The notes under the pieces were generated by a model. That model was not told the origin of the DNA and did not search any database. It saw only the letters and a list, made by a program, of their open reading frames with translations. A DNA stretch of 64,000 nt from assembly GCA_903884235.1 (NCBI GenBank), contig CAISEB010000020.1, positions 248,001 to 312,000 of the forward strand, given 5' to 3'. The position numbers and the translations under genes are program-made. Origin of the DNA: an uncultured Pseudomonadota bacterium (GTDB taxonomy: Bacteria > Pseudomonadota > Gammaproteobacteria > Steroidobacterales > Steroidobacteraceae). Position 1 is the first letter of the stretch; each line of letters starts with the position of its first letter. Below, in pieces: positions 3,226-26,366 of the stretch.

Positions 3226-4283
3226 AGCGCCTCCACACGCACCTGGTGCGTCTCGCGGCGGCGTCGGCCTGCGTACTGCTCGCCTCGTGCGAAGCGCCGC
3301 CGATGACCTCGCAGCAGATCGGCTATCGCGGCGTCGCCATGGAGCAGAACTACCACCCGGCGACCTACAAGGCGACACAGGCGAAGAACGTGCCGCCGCC
3401 GGTCATTCCCTCGATGGGCAGCTCCGGTCCGCTCGCGGTCAACACCTACAAGAACATCAAGGTACTGACCGACCTCACGGTCCCGGAAATGACGCGCGTG
3501 ATGCTCGCGATGACCGCGTGGGTCGCGCCGGCGGACAAGAGCTGTGGTTACTGCCACGCTGCGGACATGGCCAGCGACGAGATCTACCAGAAGGTCGTCG
3601 CGCGCCGGATGCTGCAGATGGTGCGCAACATCAACAGCAACTGGGGTGGGCACGTCGCCAACAACGGCGTCACCTGCTACACGTGCCATCGCGGCCAGCA
3701 GGTCCCGGCGCGGGTCTGGTACATCAACCCCGCCGAGAAGGAACTGCCGCTGCTCGGCGACCGCGCGCTGCAGAACTCGCCGGCGAAGTCCGTTGGCCTG
3801 ACCTCCCTGCCGTACGATCCGTTCCCGTCGTTCCTGCTGTCAGGTCATGACTTGAAGGTTGCCGCGACGACTGCGCTCCCCGCCGGCGATCGCAAGTCGA
3901 TCAAGCAGGCCGAGTGGACGTACGGCCTGATGATGAACATCTCGGCTGGCCTCGGCGTCAACTGCACGTACTGCCACAACAGCCGCAGCTTCCGCGACTG
4001 GGACCAGAGTACGCCTGCCCGTGCCCGGGCCTGGCATGCGATCCGGATGGTTCGCCAGCTCAACAACGACTACCTGGCACCGCTGGCGTCGGTGTTCCCG
4101 CCCGAGCGGCTCGGCCCGACCGGCGACACCGCCAAGGTCAACTGCGGCACATGCCACCAGGGCGTGTTCAAGCCGATGTATGGCCAGGGCGGCGGTGCCG
4201 ATTATCCGGAGCTGCGCGAGAAGCCCAAGGCGGTGACTGCCGCGAGCAGCACGGCAGGACGCAGCGGAGCGGGAGCCCCCTGA
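3222..4283 (+). CDS. pufC: Reaction-centre tetrahaem cytochrome c subunit
   Basis: 353 residues. The N-terminus is a lipoprotein signal with lipobox LLASC (Cys23), so the protein is anchored on the periplasmic face. Four CxxCH haem sites are present at residues 108-112, 152-156, 248-252 and 308-312, the complete set for a tetrahaem PufC. It re-reduces the photo-oxidised special pair using soluble electron donors. The start overlaps pufM by 4 bases, and its TGA shares an A with the ispH start codon. An in-frame ORF beginning upstream inside pufM is not used. Confidence 0.96.
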
Positions 4284-5239
4284 TGCATACCGTACTCGCG
4301 CAGCCTAGGGGGTTCTGTGCGGGGGTCTCACGCGCGATCGACATCGTCGATCGCGTGTTGCAGATGCACGGTGCGCCGGTCTACGTCTACCACGAGATCG
4401 TCCACAACGGACATGTCGTCGGCGACCTCGCGTCGCGAGGCGCCGTGTTCGTCGACGACATCGCCGCCATCCCGCAGGGCGCGGTCGCGGTGTTCAGCGC
4501 GCATGGCGTGTCGACGGCCGTCGTCGAGGCCGCGAAGGAACGGGGGTTGCACATCTACGATGCGACCTGCCCGCTCGTCGCGAAGGTCCACGTGCAGGCG
4601 CGCAAGTACTCGAAGCAGGGCCACGCGATCGTCATCGTCGGCCATCGCGGCCACGAGGAGGTCGAAGGCACGATGGGCTCGGTGCCGGGCGAGGTCTACG
4701 TCGTCTCGACGCTCGATGACATCGCCGCGCTGCCGCTCGCGCCGAACGACGCGATCGCCTACGTCACGCAGACGACGCTCAGCCTCGATGACGCGCGGCA
4801 CCTGATCGATGCGTTGAAGGCAAGGTTCCCGGCGATCGAGGGGCCGGAACTCGACGACATCTGCTACGCGACGCAGAACCGCCAGGTCGCGGTCCGGGCC
4901 CTCGCGCACGAGGTCGATGTCGTGCTCGTGATCGGCGCCGTCAATAGCTCCAACTCCAATCGGCTGCGCGAGGTGTCGATGCAGGAGGGCGTGCCGTCCT
5001 ACCTGATCGCCGACGCCAGCGAGATCGATGTCGCGTGGCTCGCGGGCGCGACCCGGGTCGGCATCACGGCCGGCGCGTCCACGCCCGAAGTGCTCGTGGG
5101 CGAAGTCCGCGAGCGCCTGCGGGCGCTCGGATCGACCTCCGTGCGCCAGCTGGCGGGTCCGCGCGAGACCGTGCGGTTCCGGTTGCCGGCGGCGATCAAC
5201 TCGGCCGCGGCAGCCGCTCCGGTGCCGGCGACGGCCTGA
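4283..5239 (+). CDS. ispH: 4-hydroxy-3-methylbut-2-enyl diphosphate reductase
   Basis: 318 residues, matching IspH/LytB. The N-terminal QPRGFCAGVSRAID supplies the first [4Fe-4S] cysteine. YDATCPLVAKVH and VVLVIGAVNSSNSNRL supply further conserved elements. SSNSNRL replaces the common SSNSxRL with no loss of key residues. The enzyme makes IPP and DMAPP, the last step of the MEP pathway, needed for the bacteriochlorophyll tail, carotenoids and quinones. The ATG is embedded in the pufC stop (TGATG), so translation is probably coupled to the puf operon. Confidence 0.95.
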   Translation: MHTVLAQPRGFCAGVSRAIDIVDRVLQMHGAPVYVYHEIVHNGHVVGDLASRGAVFVDDIAAIPQGAVAVFSAHGVSTAVVEAAKERGLHIYDATCPLVAKVHVQARKYSKQGHAIVIVGHRGHEEVEGTMGSVPGEVYVVSTLDDIAALPLAPNDAIAYVTQTTLSLDDARHLIDALKARFPAIEGPELDDICYATQNRQVAVRALAHEVDVVLVIGAVNSSNSNRLREVSMQEGVPSYLIADASEIDVAWLAGATRVGITAGASTPEVLVGEVRERLRALGSTSVRQLAGPRETVRFRLPAAINSAAAAAPVPATA

Positions 5240-14320: not shown

Positions 14321-15457
14321 ATGCACGCGATGGACCGCCAAGCCCCGCTGTTCGAGGCTCTCGAGCGCTGCGAGGGACCTCAAGACCTTCGCGGCCGTTT
14401 CCGGGGTTGCCTGCTGGGCGGCGCGATCGGCGACGCGCTCGGCGCGCCAATCGAGTTCCTGCACCAACGCCAGATCGTCGCGATCCATAGTCCCCGGGGG
14501 CTGACCGATTTCGCGCCGGCGTACGGACGGATCGGCGCGATCACGGACGACACGCAGATGACGCTGTTCACGGCGGAGGCGCTGCTGCGCCGGCGCGTCG
14601 CGACGCTGCTCGGCATCCAGGTGGATCCGGTTGAACTCGCCTGTGGCGCATACCTGCGCTGGCTCGCCACCCAGTCCGAGTCACCAACGGATGGGGTGCC
14701 CGCAGGCGCCGGCCTGCTGCTCGGGACGACGGCGCTGCATGCCCAGCGCGGGCCCGGCAGCACATGCATCAATTCTCTGTCCGAGCGACCGTTCGCCTCC
14801 GCGGAGCCGGCCGTGAACGACCGCAAGGGCTGCGGCGGTGTCATGCGCATGGCCCCGGTCGGGCTTGCCTGCGTGGAGGGCGGAGGGGCCGCTGCGCGAA
14901 TTACCCAGGCGTTCGACCTGGGGACAAGATTCGCCGCACTGACTCATGGGCACCCGACGGGCTCGCTCGCTGCGGGTGCCTTCGCGATGATCCAGGCGGT
15001 GATCGCGATCGGGGCGCCGCTCGAGGTCGGTGTCGACAAGGCCATCCGGTACCTGCGTGAGTTCGCCGGGCACGAGGAAGCGCTCGCCGCGCTGAACACG
15101 GCGCGCGAGCTTGCTGACCGTGGTGTGACTCCGAGCGTCGACGCGGTCGAATCCCTGGGAGGCGGCTGGGTCGCCGAGGAGGCGCTGGCGATCGGCGTCT
15201 ACGCGGCGCTGGTCGCCGAGACGTTCGCCGCCGGCGTCCTGCTCGCGGTGAACCACGGTGGTGATTCGGATTCCACGGGCGCGATCGCTGGCAATCTGCT
15301 TGGGACGCTGCACGGCGTCGACGCAATTCCGCCCAGCTGGCGCGAGCGGGTCGAACTCGGCGATCTCATCCTCGGCATGGCCGACGACCTGTACGAGGCG
15401 CCGTCGTGGACGCGCGATGATGCAGAGCGATTGGCCGGGCGATACCCGCCGCGCTGA
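14321..15457 (+). CDS. ADP-ribosylglycohydrolase (DraG-like)
   Basis: 378 residues. The conserved opening GCLLGGAIGDALGAPIEF is followed by ITDDTQMTLFTAEALL, with the metal-binding Thr-Asp-Asp set. NHGGDSDSTGAIAGNLLG near the C-terminus completes the two-magnesium site. Family members remove ADP-ribose from arginine or other acceptors; DraG reactivates nitrogenase reductase. No DraT or nif gene is visible, so the substrate is unknown. It follows bchE by 51 bases but is not a standard photosynthesis gene. Confidence 0.85.
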   Translation: MHAMDRQAPLFEALERCEGPQDLRGRFRGCLLGGAIGDALGAPIEFLHQRQIVAIHSPRGLTDFAPAYGRIGAITDDTQMTLFTAEALLRRRVATLLGIQVDPVELACGAYLRWLATQSESPTDGVPAGAGLLLGTTALHAQRGPGSTCINSLSERPFASAEPAVNDRKGCGGVMRMAPVGLACVEGGGAAARITQAFDLGTRFAALTHGHPTGSLAAGAFAMIQAVIAIGAPLEVGVDKAIRYLREFAGHEEALAALNTARELADRGVTPSVDAVESLGGGWVAEEALAIGVYAALVAETFAAGVLLAVNHGGDSDSTGAIAGNLLGTLHGVDAIPPSWRERVELGDLILGMADDLYEAPSWTRDDAERLAGRYPPR

Positions 15458-15466
15458 GGCGTGCGA

Positions 15467-18076
15467 TCAGCGGCCGGTGCGGCCGCCGACCTCGACCAGC
15501 GGCGAGTCCGGAGCGAGGCTGCGCGGGAAATCGTGACTCGCGAGTACTTTCAGGTGCGCCCGCCAGGTGTGCAGGTCGTATCGCCCGCTGTGCGGCACGT
15601 CGAGCACCGCCTGCAGCTCCTCGACCGTGCCGCCCGATTGGCCCCACTGGTAGACCTGCGCGAGGACTGATTCCGGCGTATGCACGACCAGCAGCGGGCG
15701 CCCCACCGTCCGAACGCAGTCCCAGCCGCCGAAACCGGCAGGCGGCGTCGATGGGCCATGGCCAGATGAGAAGCCCTGGGTCGAAATCCGGTTCGCGACG
15801 ATGATCTGCTGTTCGCGCGTCGCCTCGCCGGCGGTCTTGGCGAATTCCGTGCCGCCGAACGTCCGCCACGTGCGGGTTCGAATCGCGAGGCCGCCCGACT
15901 GCGCGCCCTTGTGCGTCCAGTCGCCACCCGACTCGCAGGTCGCGACGTGGTCCCAGAACGCATCGACGGCGATCGGCTTCGGGTTCGCGTGCAGGGGCGG
16001 GCTAATGGGTCGTGGCGCCGGCGTCGTATAATCCACCTCCATCGTGCCTTCTGCGGGTGGCGCGGCATCGGCGACGGCCGGAGGAGGGGCCTCGGTGGCC
16101 GGTTCCTCGGCCGAGCGGACATCGGCCTGGGGATGGTGGGTGGGTTCCACCAGTGTGCCGACGACGATGCCATGCAGGTCGGCATCGCGCGCGAGGCGCG
16201 CCGCACCCGGCGCGGGGAAGCCCCCCGCGTGCACGATCTCGGCAGCGAACACCTTGAGTCCCGCCGTCGACAGGTGCACGTGGTCCGACACGAAGTACTC
16301 AGGATGGTCGGCCGACAACGCGAACCAGTCCAGGACCGTCACGTTCGCATGCGTGGCCGCGACCTGGCGGAACATCTCGTTGTTGACGACGACCCAGCGT
16401 CGGGGCGCGAACGCGTTCACGAGAATCACTTCGTCGCGGTCGGCAAGGGCATCGAGTACGGCGCGCAACTGCTGCTCGGTCACGTAGCCGTTCGTGCCCA
16501 TGTGCACGATCACGCGCGGCGGCAGCAGGTCGTCAGCCTTCAACTCCTTGACGCGCGCGACGATGTCCCGTGCCTGGCGGCCGACCTCGGCGTCGACCTG
16601 CAGGCCATCGATCACGCGCGTGAGCGTGCGCGACGCGCCGAGCATGACCGAGTCGCCGAGTGCGAGCACGTCACCGACGTCCTCGTCCGAATCGTCCCGA
16701 TCCGCGGGCGCCGGGCTTCGTGCCGCGCCGCTCGCCGGCACCGTCGCCGGGGCCTCCGCCGGACGATGGCTCTTGGCCGACGGCACGTGCGCCGCGTGCC
16801 GCTGCCCGATGCCGATCGCCGCTGCGACGTCGTCGGGCATCGCGCCATGGGAATTGGGCCGGACGTACAGCAGCAGCGCGAGCACGACTGCGCTCGAGCC
16901 CGCCAGGACCGCACCGACCAGCGCGCGCTGGCGCTCCAGCGGTGACCAGGCCTTGAACTGCCCGGCCCGGATGGGCCGCTCCACGTACCGGTAGCTGAGC
17001 TCGGTCACGAGCAGCGTCGCGGCGAGCCTCAGCGCGAGGCAGGGGAGATCGCCGAGCGGCACGTCAAGACCCGGGCGCAGCAGGCCGAAGATCGGCCAGT
17101 GCCACAGATAGAGCCCATACGAGCGCTCGCCGATCCACCGCATCGGCGCCGTCGAGAACAGCCAGCCGATCAGCGTGCGGCGGTCGACGACCGCGTAGAT
17201 GAGGATGGTCGTGAGTGCCGCGACGAGCAGGAAGCCGCCCCGGTACAGGAACGCGGTTGATTCGGTGACCCGGAAGAACACGACCACCAGGAGCGCGATC
17301 GCGCCGAAGCCGGCGATCTCGGTCACTGCGCGTGGTGCGCGCGTCTTCGATTGCCATGGGTTCCAGTACGCGGCGAGTGCCGCTCCTGCGAACAGTCCCA
17401 TGGAGTGCGAGTCAAGGCCGAAGTACCCGCGACTCGGGTCGGCGTCTGCCGGGTAGCCGTGCCAGCCGGCGAGCACCCACATCCAGGCGGTGACGGCAAC
17501 GGCGAGCGTGACAGACACGCGTCCAAGCAGTAGTACGCGGCCGCGCGTAAGCAGGTAGATCACCAGCGCCGGCCAGAAGATGTAGAACTGTTCCTCGATC
17601 GACAGCGACCACAGGTGCTGCAGCGGCGCCGGGCGACCGATCAGTTCGAAGTACGACTGTCCATGGTAGATCTGCCACCAGTTCGATACGTACAGGAACG
17701 CGGCGGGGACGTCACCACGCAGACCCGCGATCGTGTCGTGGGAGACGAGCAGGCCGGCTGCGGTCGCCAATAGCAGCAGCAGCCACATTGCCGGAAGGAG
17801 ACGACGCGCACGCCGCAGGTAGAACTGCCGGAGGTCGATTCGATTCGTCGCGCGGTACTCGCGCAGCAGCAGCGCCGTGATCAGGAAACCGGACAGCGTG
17901 AAGAACACGTCCACGCCGAGGAACCCCGCCGCCGGGCTCCACGGCAGGTCCGTGTGGTAGAGGATGACGCCAATGACACCGAGCGCGCGGATGCCATCGA
18001 GGCCATCGATGCGGGCGCTTGCCGGGGATGGCGCAGCCGTTCCAGGTCGCGCCGGGGACGTGGTCTTGATGGTCAC
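15467..18076 (-). CDS. Membrane acyltransferase with SGNH and Rpf-like domains
   Basis: 869 residues in three parts. Residues about 20-400 are an acyltransferase-3 (OafA/YrhL) domain with about ten helices and the catalytic YHTDLPW histidine. Residues about 465-630 are an SGNH hydrolase or transferase domain with LALGDS, HMGTNG and DHVHLS. Residues about 705-790 resemble the transglycosylase-like Rpf domain: FWDHVATCESGGDW (candidate catalytic Glu715), then SGGLAI, FGGTEF, ATREQQIIVANRI and WDC. The first two parts together normally O-acetylate cell-surface glycans. The Rpf-like part would cut peptidoglycan. This combination is unusual in a Gram-negative; no frameshift separates the parts. 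Confidence 0.85.
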   Translation of the reverse strand: MTIKTTSPARPGTAAPSPASARIDGLDGIRALGVIGVILYHTDLPWSPAAGFLGVDVFFTLSGFLITALLLREYRATNRIDLRQFYLRRARRLLPAMWLLLLLATAAGLLVSHDTIAGLRGDVPAAFLYVSNWWQIYHGQSYFELIGRPAPLQHLWSLSIEEQFYIFWPALVIYLLTRGRVLLLGRVSVTLAVAVTAWMWVLAGWHGYPADADPSRGYFGLDSHSMGLFAGAALAAYWNPWQSKTRAPRAVTEIAGFGAIALLVVVFFRVTESTAFLYRGGFLLVAALTTILIYAVVDRRTLIGWLFSTAPMRWIGERSYGLYLWHWPIFGLLRPGLDVPLGDLPCLALRLAATLLVTELSYRYVERPIRAGQFKAWSPLERQRALVGAVLAGSSAVVLALLLYVRPNSHGAMPDDVAAAIGIGQRHAAHVPSAKSHRPAEAPATVPASGAARSPAPADRDDSDEDVGDVLALGDSVMLGASRTLTRVIDGLQVDAEVGRQARDIVARVKELKADDLLPPRVIVHMGTNGYVTEQQLRAVLDALADRDEVILVNAFAPRRWVVVNNEMFRQVAATHANVTVLDWFALSADHPEYFVSDHVHLSTAGLKVFAAEIVHAGGFPAPGAARLARDADLHGIVVGTLVEPTHHPQADVRSAEEPATEAPPPAVADAAPPAEGTMEVDYTTPAPRPISPPLHANPKPIAVDAFWDHVATCESGGDWTHKGAQSGGLAIRTRTWRTFGGTEFAKTAGEATREQQIIVANRISTQGFSSGHGPSTPPAGFGGWDCVRTVGRPLLVVHTPESVLAQVYQWGQSGGTVEELQAVLDVPHSGRYDLHTWRAHLKVLASHDFPRSLAPDSPLVEVGGRTGR

Positions 18077-18199: not shown

Positions 18200-19750
18200 T
18201 CACGGATGGTCGATGCGGCGCCGGTCGCGCCTGGCCTCGGCCTCGGGGGCGGCAGCGCGTTTTGGCGAATAGGGGACGCCCTCCGCGAGCAGCCACTCCG
18301 GGGCCCAGCCCATGTCGTGGGCGAAACGGTCCGCCAGTTCCCGGTAGCCCGCCGGCGTGAAGTGCGTCAGGTCACGCGCCATCAGGGCCGGGTTCTGCCG
18401 GGCCCAGCCGTAGGCGGAGCCGATGCCGCCCATCGCCCGCTGCATGCTCCAGAACGAGCAGCCGTGCGCGGTCGCGACGGCCTCCTGGATCGAGGTGATC
18501 TCGGCGTGGATCTTGGAAAACCGGAAGTAGTCGATGCCCTTGCGGGCGGTGGCCGGATGGTGCTTCGCGTGCGCCGCAACCAGGACGCCCCGATCACCCG
18601 GGCCGACGAGCAGGCACGCCGAGGTCGGGAACATCTTCTGCAGGTTGTCGACCGATTCGGCCAGCATCTGGCGGTACCGGGCCGGATCGAAGGCAGGAAC
18701 GTTGCCCTCGTTGGTCCCGAATTCGAGCATCACCAGGTCGTAGGGGTGGCCGTAGAACCAGTTCCCGAGATAGGCGAGGTTCGCCCGCTGCAGCCCGGCG
18801 ACCGTCGCTCCCGGGAATCCGAACAGATCGATCTCGGCGGCCGGAGTCGTCGGTGGGTAGAGCCGAAGGCCGTGGAACGTGAACGATCCGGAGACGATCC
18901 GCAGCCTGAGCGTCGACATGGCCGCGGTCGTGCGTACCTGCAGCTGGCCCGGGCCGTCGAAGCCGTTCAGCAGCACCTCCTCCTCGGCGCCGCCGTCGAC
19001 GCTGACGGCGACGGTGATCGGCTGGACGGTCTGCTGGTACTGGATGTCGACGGTCTTGAGCTCCGGCGTCCCGTCCGGGGTGCGCAGGTCCACCACGAGC
19101 CACGCGCCTTCCACGCCAGCGACCAGGTTGACCAGTCCCGGCCCCGGCACCGACGCCGCGGTCAGCGAGGCGTAGGCGTGCTCATAGCGCCAGCCGATCG
19201 AGAAGCAGGACTTGCGGACGGGCAGCCGGATCCCCGGCCTGCCGAGGCCCGCCGGCACGAATTCGGGGCGGATCTGCCCGGCCGGCACCCGCAAAAGGCG
19301 AGCCAGCTCCTCGGTGAAGAAGGCGGCGGCGAAGTGGCTGTCGCCCCAGATCGCAACCCGGAACGGTTGGCCTGGCTTGGCCTGGCCGAGCCGGACCGGG
19401 GCGCCCGAACGGGCCGGCGACGGGGCGAGCGAGCCTGGGCCCATGGCACCGAGTGCGCTGTCGACGTCGCTGCTGTCCGGGATCTCCTGTGGCTCCGGCT
19501 CCGGTTCGCCGGCGGCGTCCCGCGGCACCGGCGGCTTGCGTCCCGCGGTCGGGCACACGAGATCCGGCACCGAGAACCCGGTCGAGGGCGTCACGACCGT
19601 CACCGCGGGCACGTCGACGACGAGCGTTTCGATCGCGGCATCGGCGGGGGGCATGAACAACGATGCCGCACCGGCGGCGATCGCAACGACGGCCGTGCGG
19701 CGAAGGAGGCCGGCCAACGACGTCTTGTGGAGGAGATGAATCCGGTTCAA
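18200..19750 (-). CDS. Exported SGNH/GDSL-hydrolase-like protein
   Basis: 516 residues from a TTG start at 19750, chosen because a signal peptide begins there (LNRIHLLHKTSLAGLLRR, then a hydrophobic AVVAIAAGAASLFMPPADA); the frame remains open to 19930. A proline- and glutamate-rich linker (about 70-115) precedes the SGNH domain. That domain shows VAIWGDSHF (Ser138 region), EFGTNEG and DLTHFTPAGY (Asp460, His463). Likely a periplasmic esterase or acetyl-transfer partner acting on an envelope polysaccharide. It is on the same strand, 123 bases upstream of the acyltransferase fusion that also has an SGNH domain. Confidence 0.72.
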   Translation of the reverse strand: MNRIHLLHKTSLAGLLRRTAVVAIAAGAASLFMPPADAAIETLVVDVPAVTVVTPSTGFSVPDLVCPTAGRKPPVPRDAAGEPEPEPQEIPDSSDVDSALGAMGPGSLAPSPARSGAPVRLGQAKPGQPFRVAIWGDSHFAAAFFTEELARLLRVPAGQIRPEFVPAGLGRPGIRLPVRKSCFSIGWRYEHAYASLTAASVPGPGLVNLVAGVEGAWLVVDLRTPDGTPELKTVDIQYQQTVQPITVAVSVDGGAEEEVLLNGFDGPGQLQVRTTAAMSTLRLRIVSGSFTFHGLRLYPPTTPAAEIDLFGFPGATVAGLQRANLAYLGNWFYGHPYDLVMLEFGTNEGNVPAFDPARYRQMLAESVDNLQKMFPTSACLLVGPGDRGVLVAAHAKHHPATARKGIDYFRFSKIHAEITSIQEAVATAHGCSFWSMQRAMGGIGSAYGWARQNPALMARDLTHFTPAGYRELADRFAHDMGWAPEWLLAEGVPYSPKRAAAPEAEARRDRRRIDHP

Positions 19751-19905
19751 TGCGCCCGCCGCGGTCCCCGAGTAACGGTTGCCGAGTGTACCGGCTGCTG
19801 GCGATGCCGTCCCCCGAGCCGGTCGCGTTCTCGTCCTAATCGTGGCCCCCGACCGAGTCCGCCGGAGCGGTAAGCCGGTATGACGCCAACCGGCGACATC
19901 GCGCG

Positions 19906-20556
19906 GTGAACCACCAGCAACTGAAAGCACGCCAGCGACGTGAACGGGCGACCCACTCGCCGAGTACGGCGCTGCGCGTGCATCGTGCGCTCAGCTGGCT
20001 TGGCCGGGCGGAGCAGCTCGGGGATGATCCCGACACGCAATTCGTGCTGCTGTGGATCGCGTTCAATGCCGCGTACGCGCGTGACATCGAGGAGGGCGCG
20101 CGTCGGTCGGAGCGCCTGACGTTCAAAGGCTTACTCGATGAATTGATCGCGCTGGACGGCGAGCGTGCGATCGAGAACCTGGTCTGGGCGGAGTTCCCAG
20201 GGAGCATTCGCGTGGTGCTCGACAACGTCTACATCTTCAACGACTTCCGGGTCCACCACTCCGGTCGGCTCAGCGCCGACGACTGGAGGCGTGCGTTCTC
20301 GAATGCGAATCGCGCCGCGGTTCGGGCGCTCGGACGGAGCGACACCACCTCGGTGCCTAGCATCGTACTGAGCCGGCTCTACGTGCTGCGGAACCAGCTC
20401 GTGCACGGCGGGGCGACGTGGGGCGGCAAGGTCAATCGCGCGCAGGTCCGCGACGGCGCGAGCCTGCTCGCCAAGCTCATGCCGCGCGTCATCACGATCA
20501 TCCTCGACCACCCGGACCACGACTTGGGCCGCGCATGCTATCCGGTGATTACATGA
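19906..20556 (+). CDS. HEPN-like protein
   Basis: 216 residues, soluble and mostly helical. The C-terminal half contains LRNQLVHGG, an R-x4-H motif of the HEPN superfamily, many members of which are RNases. FVLLWIAFNAAYARD and NDFRVHH resemble the Apea/MAE_28990 type of HEPN protein. No cognate antitoxin is beside it. The start at 19906 (GTG) is uncertain. It is 13 bases from the next gene and perhaps co-transcribed with it. The call rests on the motif and overall helical character only. Confidence 0.55.
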   Translation: MNHQQLKARQRRERATHSPSTALRVHRALSWLGRAEQLGDDPDTQFVLLWIAFNAAYARDIEEGARRSERLTFKGLLDELIALDGERAIENLVWAEFPGSIRVVLDNVYIFNDFRVHHSGRLSADDWRRAFSNANRAAVRALGRSDTTSVPSIVLSRLYVLRNQLVHGGATWGGKVNRAQVRDGASLLAKLMPRVITIILDHPDHDLGRACYPVIT

Positions 20557-24344: not shown

Positions 24345-26366
24345 ATGAACTCACCGCCCGCCGCAACACTGCTCGAACAGAGGCTGCGCTCGATACGGGC
24401 AGTCCTTCGGTCCGGTCGCGCGCTGACCGCTGAGCGCGCACTGCGAGCGCTCCTTCACGAACACCCGCATGACTTGACCGGGCATTGGCTGCTCGGCGTC
24501 GCGCTGCTCGATCAGGGCAACACTGCCGAAAGTCGCGCGCTGCTTGAGCACGCGGTCCGGATGGCCCCCGACTTCGTGGATGCGCGCATCGACCTCGCGC
24601 GCGCCGACCGCGCCTCGGGACGCCTGGCGGAGTCAAGGGCGCATGTGCGCCGGGTGCTCGAGGTGCAGCCGCGTCACGACCGCGCGTGGCTCGCCTACGG
24701 CGATGTCCTGGTTGACCTCGAACAATACGACGATGCACGCGTCGCGTTCGAACGTGCGCGTGAGTGCGAGTCCGATGGCCCACGCATCGAGCGCGCAACC
24801 GCCGCGCTCGTTGCCGACGACCGGCGCGGTGCCGAGGAATTGTTCCGCGAAGTCCTGCGGGCGGACCCGGCACATGTGTCCGCCCTTTGCGGACTGGCCT
24901 CGTTGTCCCTTGCCGCCGATGTTCCCGGCGATGCCGAGCGATTGCTGCGGCACGCGCTGCGACAGTCGGCGCACGTCCCGCTCGCGTGGCGCGGGATGGG
25001 GCCGGCGCTGCTGGCGCTCGGGCAGGTGCAGGCGGCAGCCGATGCCGCGCGATATCTGCGCAACATCGAACCCGCGAATCCGCAGAGTTGGGTCGCAACC
25101 GCCGCCGCGGCAGCCCGGCTCATGCGCCAGGAGGAGGCGCTCGCCGCGTACGAGCAGGCCGCGCGCCTCCATCCCGGCGAAGTACAACTGCACACGTCCA
25201 TCGGTCACGTGCTCAAGACGCTCGGACGCCGTGTCGAAAGCGAGGCGGCCTACAAGCGGGCAATCCAGGTGCAGCCAACCTGTGCCGAAGCATACTGGAG
25301 CCTTGCCGATCTCAAGAATTACCGCTTCGGCGATGCGGAAGTCGAGGCGATGCAGGAGCTGCTCGCCGACGATCACCGGGACGGGACGGGCGATGCGCAG
25401 CTCGAGTTCGCGCTCGGCAAGGCATTCGAGCAGCGCGAGCAGTATTCGGCGTCCTTCGCCCATTACGCCGCAGGCAATTCGCGGCGGCGGCGGGACGCGC
25501 CATTCGACATCGGCGCGTTCGAGCGCCGCACCGAGCGGATCCGGGCGTTCTTCAGTCGGGCGTTCCTGGCCGCGCGAGGCGGCTCAGGCGAGCTTGGACG
25601 AGCACCGATCTTCATCGTTGGCTTGCCGCGATCCGGCTCGACCCTGGTCGAGCAGATTCTCGCGAGCCACTCCAGGGTCGAAGGCACGATGGAGCTGCCC
25701 AACATCCTCAATTTCGTGCGCGACATCGATGATCTCGCGCCGGGCAGGAACGGCTACCCGGAACGAATCGGCGAGCTGGCCCCGGATCGCCTGGGGACGT
25801 TCGGGCGCCGCTACCTGGACGAGACGGCGCCGCTGCGCCAGGGCCTGGAGCGCTTCACCGACAAGCTGCCCAACAACTTCAGCCACGTCGGGCTCATCCA
25901 CCTGATCCTGCCGAACGCCACCATCATCGACGCCCGGCGTCATCCGATGGACTGCTGCCTGAGCACGTTCAAGCAGCACTTCGCCGAGGGCCAGACGTTC
26001 AGTTACGATCTCGACGACCTGGGGCGCTATTACCGATGCTACCTGTCCCTGATGGATCACTGGGACAACGTGCTCCCGGGCAAGGTGCTTCGGATGCAGT
26101 ATGAAGAGCTGGTCCGGGACCCAGAGATCCAGATTCGCCGCCTGCTCGAGCACTGCCAGCTTGAATTCGAGCCCGCCTGCCTCGCCTTCCACGAAACCCG
26201 TCGGTCCGTGAGGACGGCGAGTGCGGAGCAGGTGCGCCAACCCATCTACAGCTCCGGCGTAGGCTACTGGCGCCACTTCGAGGCCGAGCTTGAGCCGCTG
26301 CGCAAGGCGCTCGGCGACGCGGTGGAACGATTCCAATCGCTTGAGTGGCCGCCTGTCTTGCGCTGA
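24345..26366 (+). CDS. TPR-repeat sulfotransferase
   Basis: 673 residues. The first 370 or so are tandem TPR helices (for example ALRALLHEHPHDLTGHWLLGVALLDQG and SRALLEHAVRMAPDFVDARIDLARA). The C-terminal 290 form a PAPS-dependent sulfotransferase domain starting with GLPRSGSTLVEQILASH, the 5'-phosphosulfate loop. ARRHPMDCCLSTFKQHF holds the 3'-phosphate contacts. Such TPR-sulfotransferases are common beside TonB receptors in Steroidobacteraceae and sphingomonads, but the acceptor is unknown. The TonB receptor gene follows on the same strand. Confidence 0.85.
   Translation: MNSPPAATLLEQRLRSIRAVLRSGRALTAERALRALLHEHPHDLTGHWLLGVALLDQGNTAESRALLEHAVRMAPDFVDARIDLARADRASGRLAESRAHVRRVLEVQPRHDRAWLAYGDVLVDLEQYDDARVAFERARECESDGPRIERATAALVADDRRGAEELFREVLRADPAHVSALCGLASLSLAADVPGDAERLLRHALRQSAHVPLAWRGMGPALLALGQVQAAADAARYLRNIEPANPQSWVATAAAAARLMRQEEALAAYEQAARLHPGEVQLHTSIGHVLKTLGRRVESEAAYKRAIQVQPTCAEAYWSLADLKNYRFGDAEVEAMQELLADDHRDGTGDAQLEFALGKAFEQREQYSASFAHYAAGNSRRRRDAPFDIGAFERRTERIRAFFSRAFLAARGGSGELGRAPIFIVGLPRSGSTLVEQILASHSRVEGTMELPNILNFVRDIDDLAPGRNGYPERIGELAPDRLGTFGRRYLDETAPLRQGLERFTDKLPNNFSHVGLIHLILPNATIIDARRHPMDCCLSTFKQHFAEGQTFSYDLDDLGRYYRCYLSLMDHWDNVLPGKVLRMQYEELVRDPEIQIRRLLEHCQLEFEPACLAFHETRRSVRTASAEQVRQPIYSSGVGYWRHFEAELEPLRKALGDAVERFQSLEWPPVLR

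Follow-up and report, generated by a model that had tools for sequence, protein, structure and literature searches.

In this work, we focused on a gene found in a stretch of 64,000 nucleotides from an uncultured gammaproteobacterium of the family Steroidobacteraceae (contig CAISEB010000020.1, positions 248,001 to 312,000; the whole stretch is hereafter called the window). The gene encodes, on a single chain, an AT3 acyltransferase domain, an SGNH domain, a resuscitation-promoting factor (Rpf) domain and a short tail, and it adjoins a gene for an Ape1-like protein. Judged from sequence, the most plausible reading of the pair is a write–cut–erase module for peptidoglycan O-acetylation, assembled by horizontal transfer. 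Sequence comparisons and structural models make it probable that the fusion protein is an OatA-type peptidoglycan O-acetyltransferase carrying, at its periplasmic end, an Rpf lytic-transglycosylase domain and a short glycan-binding-like tail, and that it would be self-limiting, with the Ape1-like protein as eraser.

The proposed mechanism builds on the chemistry of a single hydroxyl group. Lytic transglycosylases make 1,6-anhydro-N-acetylmuramic acid (1,6-anhydroMurNAc) and thus require a free C6-OH; O-acetylation at C6 precludes their reaction and is described as a substrate-level control of autolysis in Gram-negatives, the mark being stripped by Ape (PMC6174289). As OatA acetylates this same C6-OH of MurNAc (PMC6174289), both halves of the fusion probably act on peptidoglycan. 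The AT3 domain would carry acetyl over the inner membrane, the SGNH domain would set it on the MurNAc C6-OH, and the tethered Rpf domain would cut neighbouring unmodified strands. The enzyme's own acetyl mark would limit its own cutting, because acetylated MurNAc is unable to form the 1,6-anhydro product, until the Ape1-like esterase strips the mark and resets the site for cutting. The following features were delineated, the domains being given by residue number in the fusion protein:

15467..18076, reverse strand: whole gene, AT3-SGNH-Rpf-tail fusion (869 aa, GTG start)
17057..18007, reverse strand: AT3 acyltransferase membrane domain, residues 24-340, with the R30-x10-H41 motif (PF01757, 8.9e-33)
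16868..16924, reverse strand: last hydrophobic helix, about residues 385-403 (hydropathy; helix 379-405 in the model)
16235..16666, reverse strand: SGNH domain of OatA type, residues 471-614, with S476, D598 and H601 (phmmer to 6wn9/6vjp)
15971..16213, reverse strand: Pro/Ala-rich linker, residues 622-702 (low model confidence)
15716..15970, reverse strand: Rpf domain, residues 703-787, of which 703-768 form the Pfam part (PF06737; RpfB structure match)
15932..15934, reverse strand: codon of Glu715, the Rpf catalytic position (motif reading, alignment)
15527..15676, reverse strand: C-terminal tail, residues about 801-850, tentatively PG_binding_1-like (common to viral Rpf + tail proteins)
18200..19930, reverse strand: Ape1-like SGNH esterase gene, directly upstream (phmmer to 4k3u; GDSH, GTNE, D520-x2-H523)

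The reading frame of the fusion is uninterrupted from its GTG and sits on a 312-kb contig. An assembly chimera is unlikely, because the GC content is even along the gene (0.690 overall against 0.685 for the window; 0.67-0.75 by segment) and the domain order is repeated in five other assemblies. In the full-length structural model (mean predicted local distance difference test, pLDDT, 72.3), confidence was good over the AT3 and SGNH domains and poor over the linker and the Rpf domain. Residues past the last hydrophobic helix would lie outside the inner membrane.

The front half was assigned by combining profile and structure searches. The AT3 domain was above the Pfam cut-off, and the SGNH part, which Pfam did not call in this protein, was found by phmmer against solved structures, i.e. 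6wn9 (1.7e-23; labelled merely ‘Acetyltransferase’ in the search output), 6vjp (7.6e-23), 5ufy (1.4e-5) and also 5ug1. Two of these are SGNH domains of OatA, from S. aureus (6VJP; PMC9487903) and from S. pneumoniae (5UFY; PMC5697884). The fusion shares with OatA the order AT3 then SGNH, the R-x10-H motif of the AT3 domain (PMC9558356), and the two motifs given for OatA (PMC5697884), here GDSV at 474-477 and D598-H-V-H601 (DxVH); S476, D598 and H601 were unvarying in both alignments inspected (A6 and A10). It is also 38-46% identical to the 30 best OatA-like loci of a search of Acidimicrobiia. Unlike OatA, it runs on into an Rpf domain and a tail, adjoins an Ape1-like gene and belongs to a gammaproteobacterial host. 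A reading of this DNA from sequence alone had proposed an OafA-type acyltransferase joined to an SGNH domain: both domains are present, but by these comparisons the type is OatA-like rather than OafA-like, and the SGNH part is predicted to transfer acetyl to the MurNAc C6-OH.

The C-terminal Rpf-like domain foreseen by the sequence-only reading was borne out by several lines of evidence. The motifs FWDHVATCESGGDW, SGGL, GGTEFA, ATREQQIIVA and W785-D-C787 are present, PF06737 matched residues 703-768 well above its gathering cut-off (2.3e-15; 57.5 bits against 27), and phmmer aligned the Rpf part with the RpfC structure 2n5z (E 1e-9). The NCBIfam RpfC model scored 44.6 bits (1.5e-11), under its equivalog cut-off of 200 bits; by these scores the protein carries an Rpf domain but is no RpfC. 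An AlphaFold model of residues 686-869 (16 aligned rows) reached a mean pLDDT of 91.8, and in a Foldseek search with it Rpf structures filled ranks 1-7. The catalytic domain of RpfB (4emn_B) was matched with E 1.8e-4, a root-mean-square deviation of 1.4 Å over 91 columns and a TM score of 0.84 by target. Residue 715, expected at the catalytic position, is Glu and is kept in all five fused homologues outside the window. None of the outcomes that the sequence-only reading had named as refuting it was observed. C714 and C787 form a candidate disulfide. The domain thus resembles resuscitation-promoting factors in sequence, predicted fold, Glu, Cys pair and GGL/TW/ATREQQI motifs, and it differs from them in being joined to a membrane acetyltransferase in a gammaproteobacterium, in a short insert before W-x-C and in the added tail.

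Lytic transglycosylase activity (rather than muramidase activity) is predicted from the family, as PF06737 is named Transglycosylase-like and Rpf has been described as weakly similar to lytic transglycosylases (PMC1084345). Alternatively, the Rpf domain and tail could be a targeting module that binds glycan strands, perhaps at their ends, to place the acetyltransferase, and that cuts little or not at all. The Rpf part sits on a Pro/Ala-rich linker, the tail behind it is PG_binding_1-like in some relatives, and the usual GG after CES/CET is replaced by GN or NS in the fusions of a second genus, features that would suit a binder. All six fusions nevertheless keep the Glu and both Cys, and the Glu is found in each of the 16 aligned Rpf members, those from viruses among them; such conservation would not be expected of a pure binder, and we consider this alternative unlikely, though worth weighing.

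The gene upstream of the fusion lies on the same strand, after a gap of 123 bp. Its product matched 4k3u by phmmer (E 3e-11), residues 186-216 and 397-538 aligning to 50-80 and 240-366 of the structure (the first stretch being weak alone), and in both proteins an insert splits the GDSH block from the later blocks. 4k3u falls in one sequence group with 4K40, the structure of N. meningitidis Ape (PMC5697884). G196-H199 (GDSH), G405-E408 (GTNE), D520 and H523 were unvarying in six aligned Ape1-like homologues. The neighbour is likely a peptidoglycan de-O-acetylase of the Ape1 type, by resemblance to a protein whose activity as O-acetyl-peptidoglycan esterase is confirmed (PMC6174289). An Ape1-like open reading frame (ORF) also adjoins the fusion in four of five loci of the second genus (L354, L355, L357 and L358); in the fifth (L356, genome G935) the fusion gene itself is cut off by the end of the contig. 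There the fusion comes first and the Ape1-like ORF second, opposite to the order in the window, and the two ORFs overlap by 4 bp in L355 and L358. That the partner recurs in two different gene orders speaks for a functional link and against a chance neighbourhood common to both.

This partner also bears on which polymer is acylated. The AT3-SGNH half might acylate another periplasmic or surface glycan, such as lipopolysaccharide or a glucan, with the Rpf domain opening the wall independently, for insertion or export. AT3-SGNH proteins do modify many glycans (PMC9558356), and in one genome of the second genus (G937) the Ape1-like gene is followed by one for an EptA-like phosphoethanolamine transferase (L355:11095-13698, forward strand), an envelope-modifying neighbour. 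Against this, the SGNH domain is OatA-like and unlike that of the order's other AT3 proteins, no ORF at 13 loci of other genomes (L003-L015) giving a phmmer match to it at E 0.01, and the neighbour resembles an O-acetyl-peptidoglycan esterase (PMC6174289). We find this possibility rather improbable. The sequence-only reading had imagined one polypeptide that both acylates an envelope glycan and cleaves the wall; its idea of coupling is supported by the sequence comparisons, but the polymer would most likely be peptidoglycan itself, given the OatA-type SGNH domain and the Ape1-like neighbour.

We further assessed the distribution of the fusion. In the family, nine of 217 genomes matched the protein at 1e-45: the window's own genome, one that matched in the AT3 range only (G908) and seven of the second genus (g13). 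The same domain order, which the sequence-only reading had proposed to look for in other genomes, was found in one frame in five of the 24 genomes of g13 (G919, G927, G935, G936 and G937), the frame of G935 extending to its contig end. Fragments occur in two more: in G915 the AT3 pieces lie at the end of one contig and those of SGNH and Rpf in neighbouring frames of another, and G917 has a fragment cut at a contig end. G934, also of g13, matched in the AT3 range only. Both PF01757 and PF06737 were above cut-off in all four of the five g13 fusions that were scanned. At about 41-47% identity, R30, H41, S476, D598, H601, C714, E715 and C787 are unvarying in the alignment of all six fusions. In the order, the Rpf + tail profile matched seven of 396 genomes, six of them from g13 and the seventh the window's own, and none of 334 plasmid records covered 80% of the fusion query.

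The Rpf domain as a general trait of the lineage was considered and rejected: PF06737 matched in one of 60 relatives, namely the own genome, where it is the single match. Across the phylum, two of 398 genomes had a match, the own genome and G417; the latter (L020) is a 211-aa frame scoring 22.8 bits, below the cut-off.

Phylogenetic analysis pointed to a single origin. In a maximum-likelihood tree of 44 OatA-type rows, with the fused rows trimmed before the Rpf domain, the six fused rows formed one clade (100/100), present in 100% of 200 bootstrap trees. This clade was placed among Acidimicrobiia rows with a deep support of 25/72, so its sister group has no firm placement. In the tree of the Rpf + tail region, the fused rows were set apart by a branch supported at 85/96; this tree, in which ten rows were not counted and long branches were flagged, is weaker than the AT3-SGNH tree.

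The affinities of the parts lie outside the order. The AT3 domain scored 281 bits with a Miltoncostaea protein and 246 with a Bacillus one, against at most 154 with the examined loci of the own order, among which no ORF matched the SGNH query. In Acidimicrobiia (class inferred), 104 of 296 genomes matched at 1e-60, the best with 467 bits and 44% over residues 23-625. The Rpf domain and tail (residues about 693-848) are 34-41% identical to proteins of viral contigs (L058 and L138-L150), in which the two also occur together. Those proteins differ from the fusion in being stand-alone ORFs without room for AT3 or SGNH, the five kept ones having 216-376 aa and, by eye, signal-like N-termini.

A complete fusion inherited from actinobacteria was not found, though it is not excluded by the searches: at none of the 80 Rpf loci among the matches listed in the contig scan did an ORF of at least 80 aa match the AT3, SGNH or tail query (single-sequence queries being weak for the tail), and AT3 and Rpf shared one ORF in none of 69 loci (L271-L339). 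In Acidimicrobiia, 19 of 292 genomes matched the Rpf + tail profile at 1e-20; the best, in G507 (L370), is an ORF that stops just after GWGC, before the tail, the reported match crossing two stops. Within the sampled phyla, beyond which coverage was slight, a single fusion of Gram-positive-type parts, in this gammaproteobacterial family or before it, is likely; we infer the direction and vehicle of transfer.

Viral contigs offered several observations of their own. The Rpf + tail proteins at L138-L150 and L058 make up a family; they are small and look secreted. One of them (L149:2800-3927) continues, by eye, into a second lysozyme-like stretch (YIMWRESRC...), and its gene adjoins a match to a head maturation protease. 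Short Rpf-like proteins that have neither GG-x2-FA nor the tail and that end in a conserved GWGC were seen at L151-L155, L163 and L171. AT3 acyltransferase matches occurred at 33 viral-contig loci (L025-L057) and are perhaps surface-altering prophage genes.

Several observations weigh against the self-limiting module. None of the 14 other genomes of the window's genus matched the fusion at 1e-45, and 17 of the 24 g13 genomes had no OatA-type match (16 with none at 1e-10, plus G934), many of these 17 being incomplete assemblies; given these absences, the lineage as a whole does not share the fusion. Among the 14 siblings in the genus, G004 carries an Ape1-like gene (50% identical) and gave no fusion match at 1e-20, and any joint transcription of the two genes of the window would have to cross 123 bp. 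The tail was assigned as PG_binding_1-like on PF01471 matches in four of 16 alignment members at E up to 1 (best 0.0035) and none in the window member, which is weak. Rpf domains are small and could serve as binders alone, and over this domain, which six of 24 alignment rows reach, the full-length model is poor.

The patchy spread might also suggest an acquired fusion that has kept no function and is neutral or decaying, the own genome being alone in its genus at 1e-45, g13 having five fusions and two fragments, and the G915 pieces being spread over several frames. This seems very unlikely to us, as all the named catalytic residues are kept at this degree of divergence and the partner gene is kept in both genera. 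That the protein is a resuscitation factor which also modifies the wall, akin to the dormancy exit raised by the sequence-only reading, is hardly credible: sequence and predicted fold do place the domain in the Rpf family, but the protein is predicted to be membrane-anchored, not secreted, none of the Pfam-named neighbours (in the window, L355 and L358) was recognised as a dormancy gene, and nothing found speaks for it.

The host was rightly taken for a Gram-negative phototroph, the window holding pufL/M, the reaction-centre cytochrome gene (pufC), bchB (part), bchE, bchG, bchP and pucC. Among plasmid-collection records, its 16S sequence comes closest to Methylomagnum (86.8%) and Halomonas (86.4%), pointing to the class Gammaproteobacteria. 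Between bchE and the fusion lies an ADP-ribosylglycohydrolase gene (14321-15457, forward strand; 1.2e-66), convergent with the fusion and ending about 10 bp from its end. A LytB/IspH match (3914-5239, forward strand) stands within the photosynthesis gene cluster, after pufLMC, and a further gene (24345-26366, forward strand) joins a sulfotransferase domain to TPR repeats.

A functional parallel to the write–cut–erase module proposed here is the PatA/PatB/Ape1 system of Gram-negatives with LtgA, which likewise brings a writer, an eraser and a lytic transglycosylase to one mark; in Neisseria, LtgA and Ape1 form a co-eluting complex in which each stimulates the other (PMC7083599). There the writer comprises two proteins (MBOAT and SGNH) and the lytic transglycosylase is a separate lipoprotein, whereas here writer and lytic transglycosylase are one chain, the former of AT3 and the latter of Rpf type. 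More tentatively, we propose that the self-limiting module was assembled once in the family from an actinobacterial-type OatA and a phage-type Rpf + tail, that it may replace PatA/PatB plus a separate lytic transglycosylase, and that its Rpf domain may be catalytic on the cell's own wall; this fuller account is possible and somewhat doubtful.

Every part is already known and the combination is new. As of 2005, Rpf was regarded as restricted to actinobacteria (PMC1084345). Among the C-terminal partners of AT3 domains, a 2022 review mentions SGNH and alanine racemase, and its main text contains neither ‘transglycosylase’ nor ‘resuscitation’ (PMC9558356); in the literature searches made, the titles and abstract openings of the open-licence papers found named no AT3-SGNH-Rpf fusion. 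According to a review, no coupling of OatA to an Ape-like esterase is known, a possible reason being that Gram-positive autolysins are mostly not lytic transglycosylases (PMC6174289). An OatA-type writer joined to a lytic transglycosylase-type domain, with an Ape1-like eraser, is what one would expect in a Gram-negative under that explanation. The fusion puts an Rpf domain into a wall enzyme of a proteobacterium, and the coupling of writer and cutter would be open to direct test on one polypeptide.
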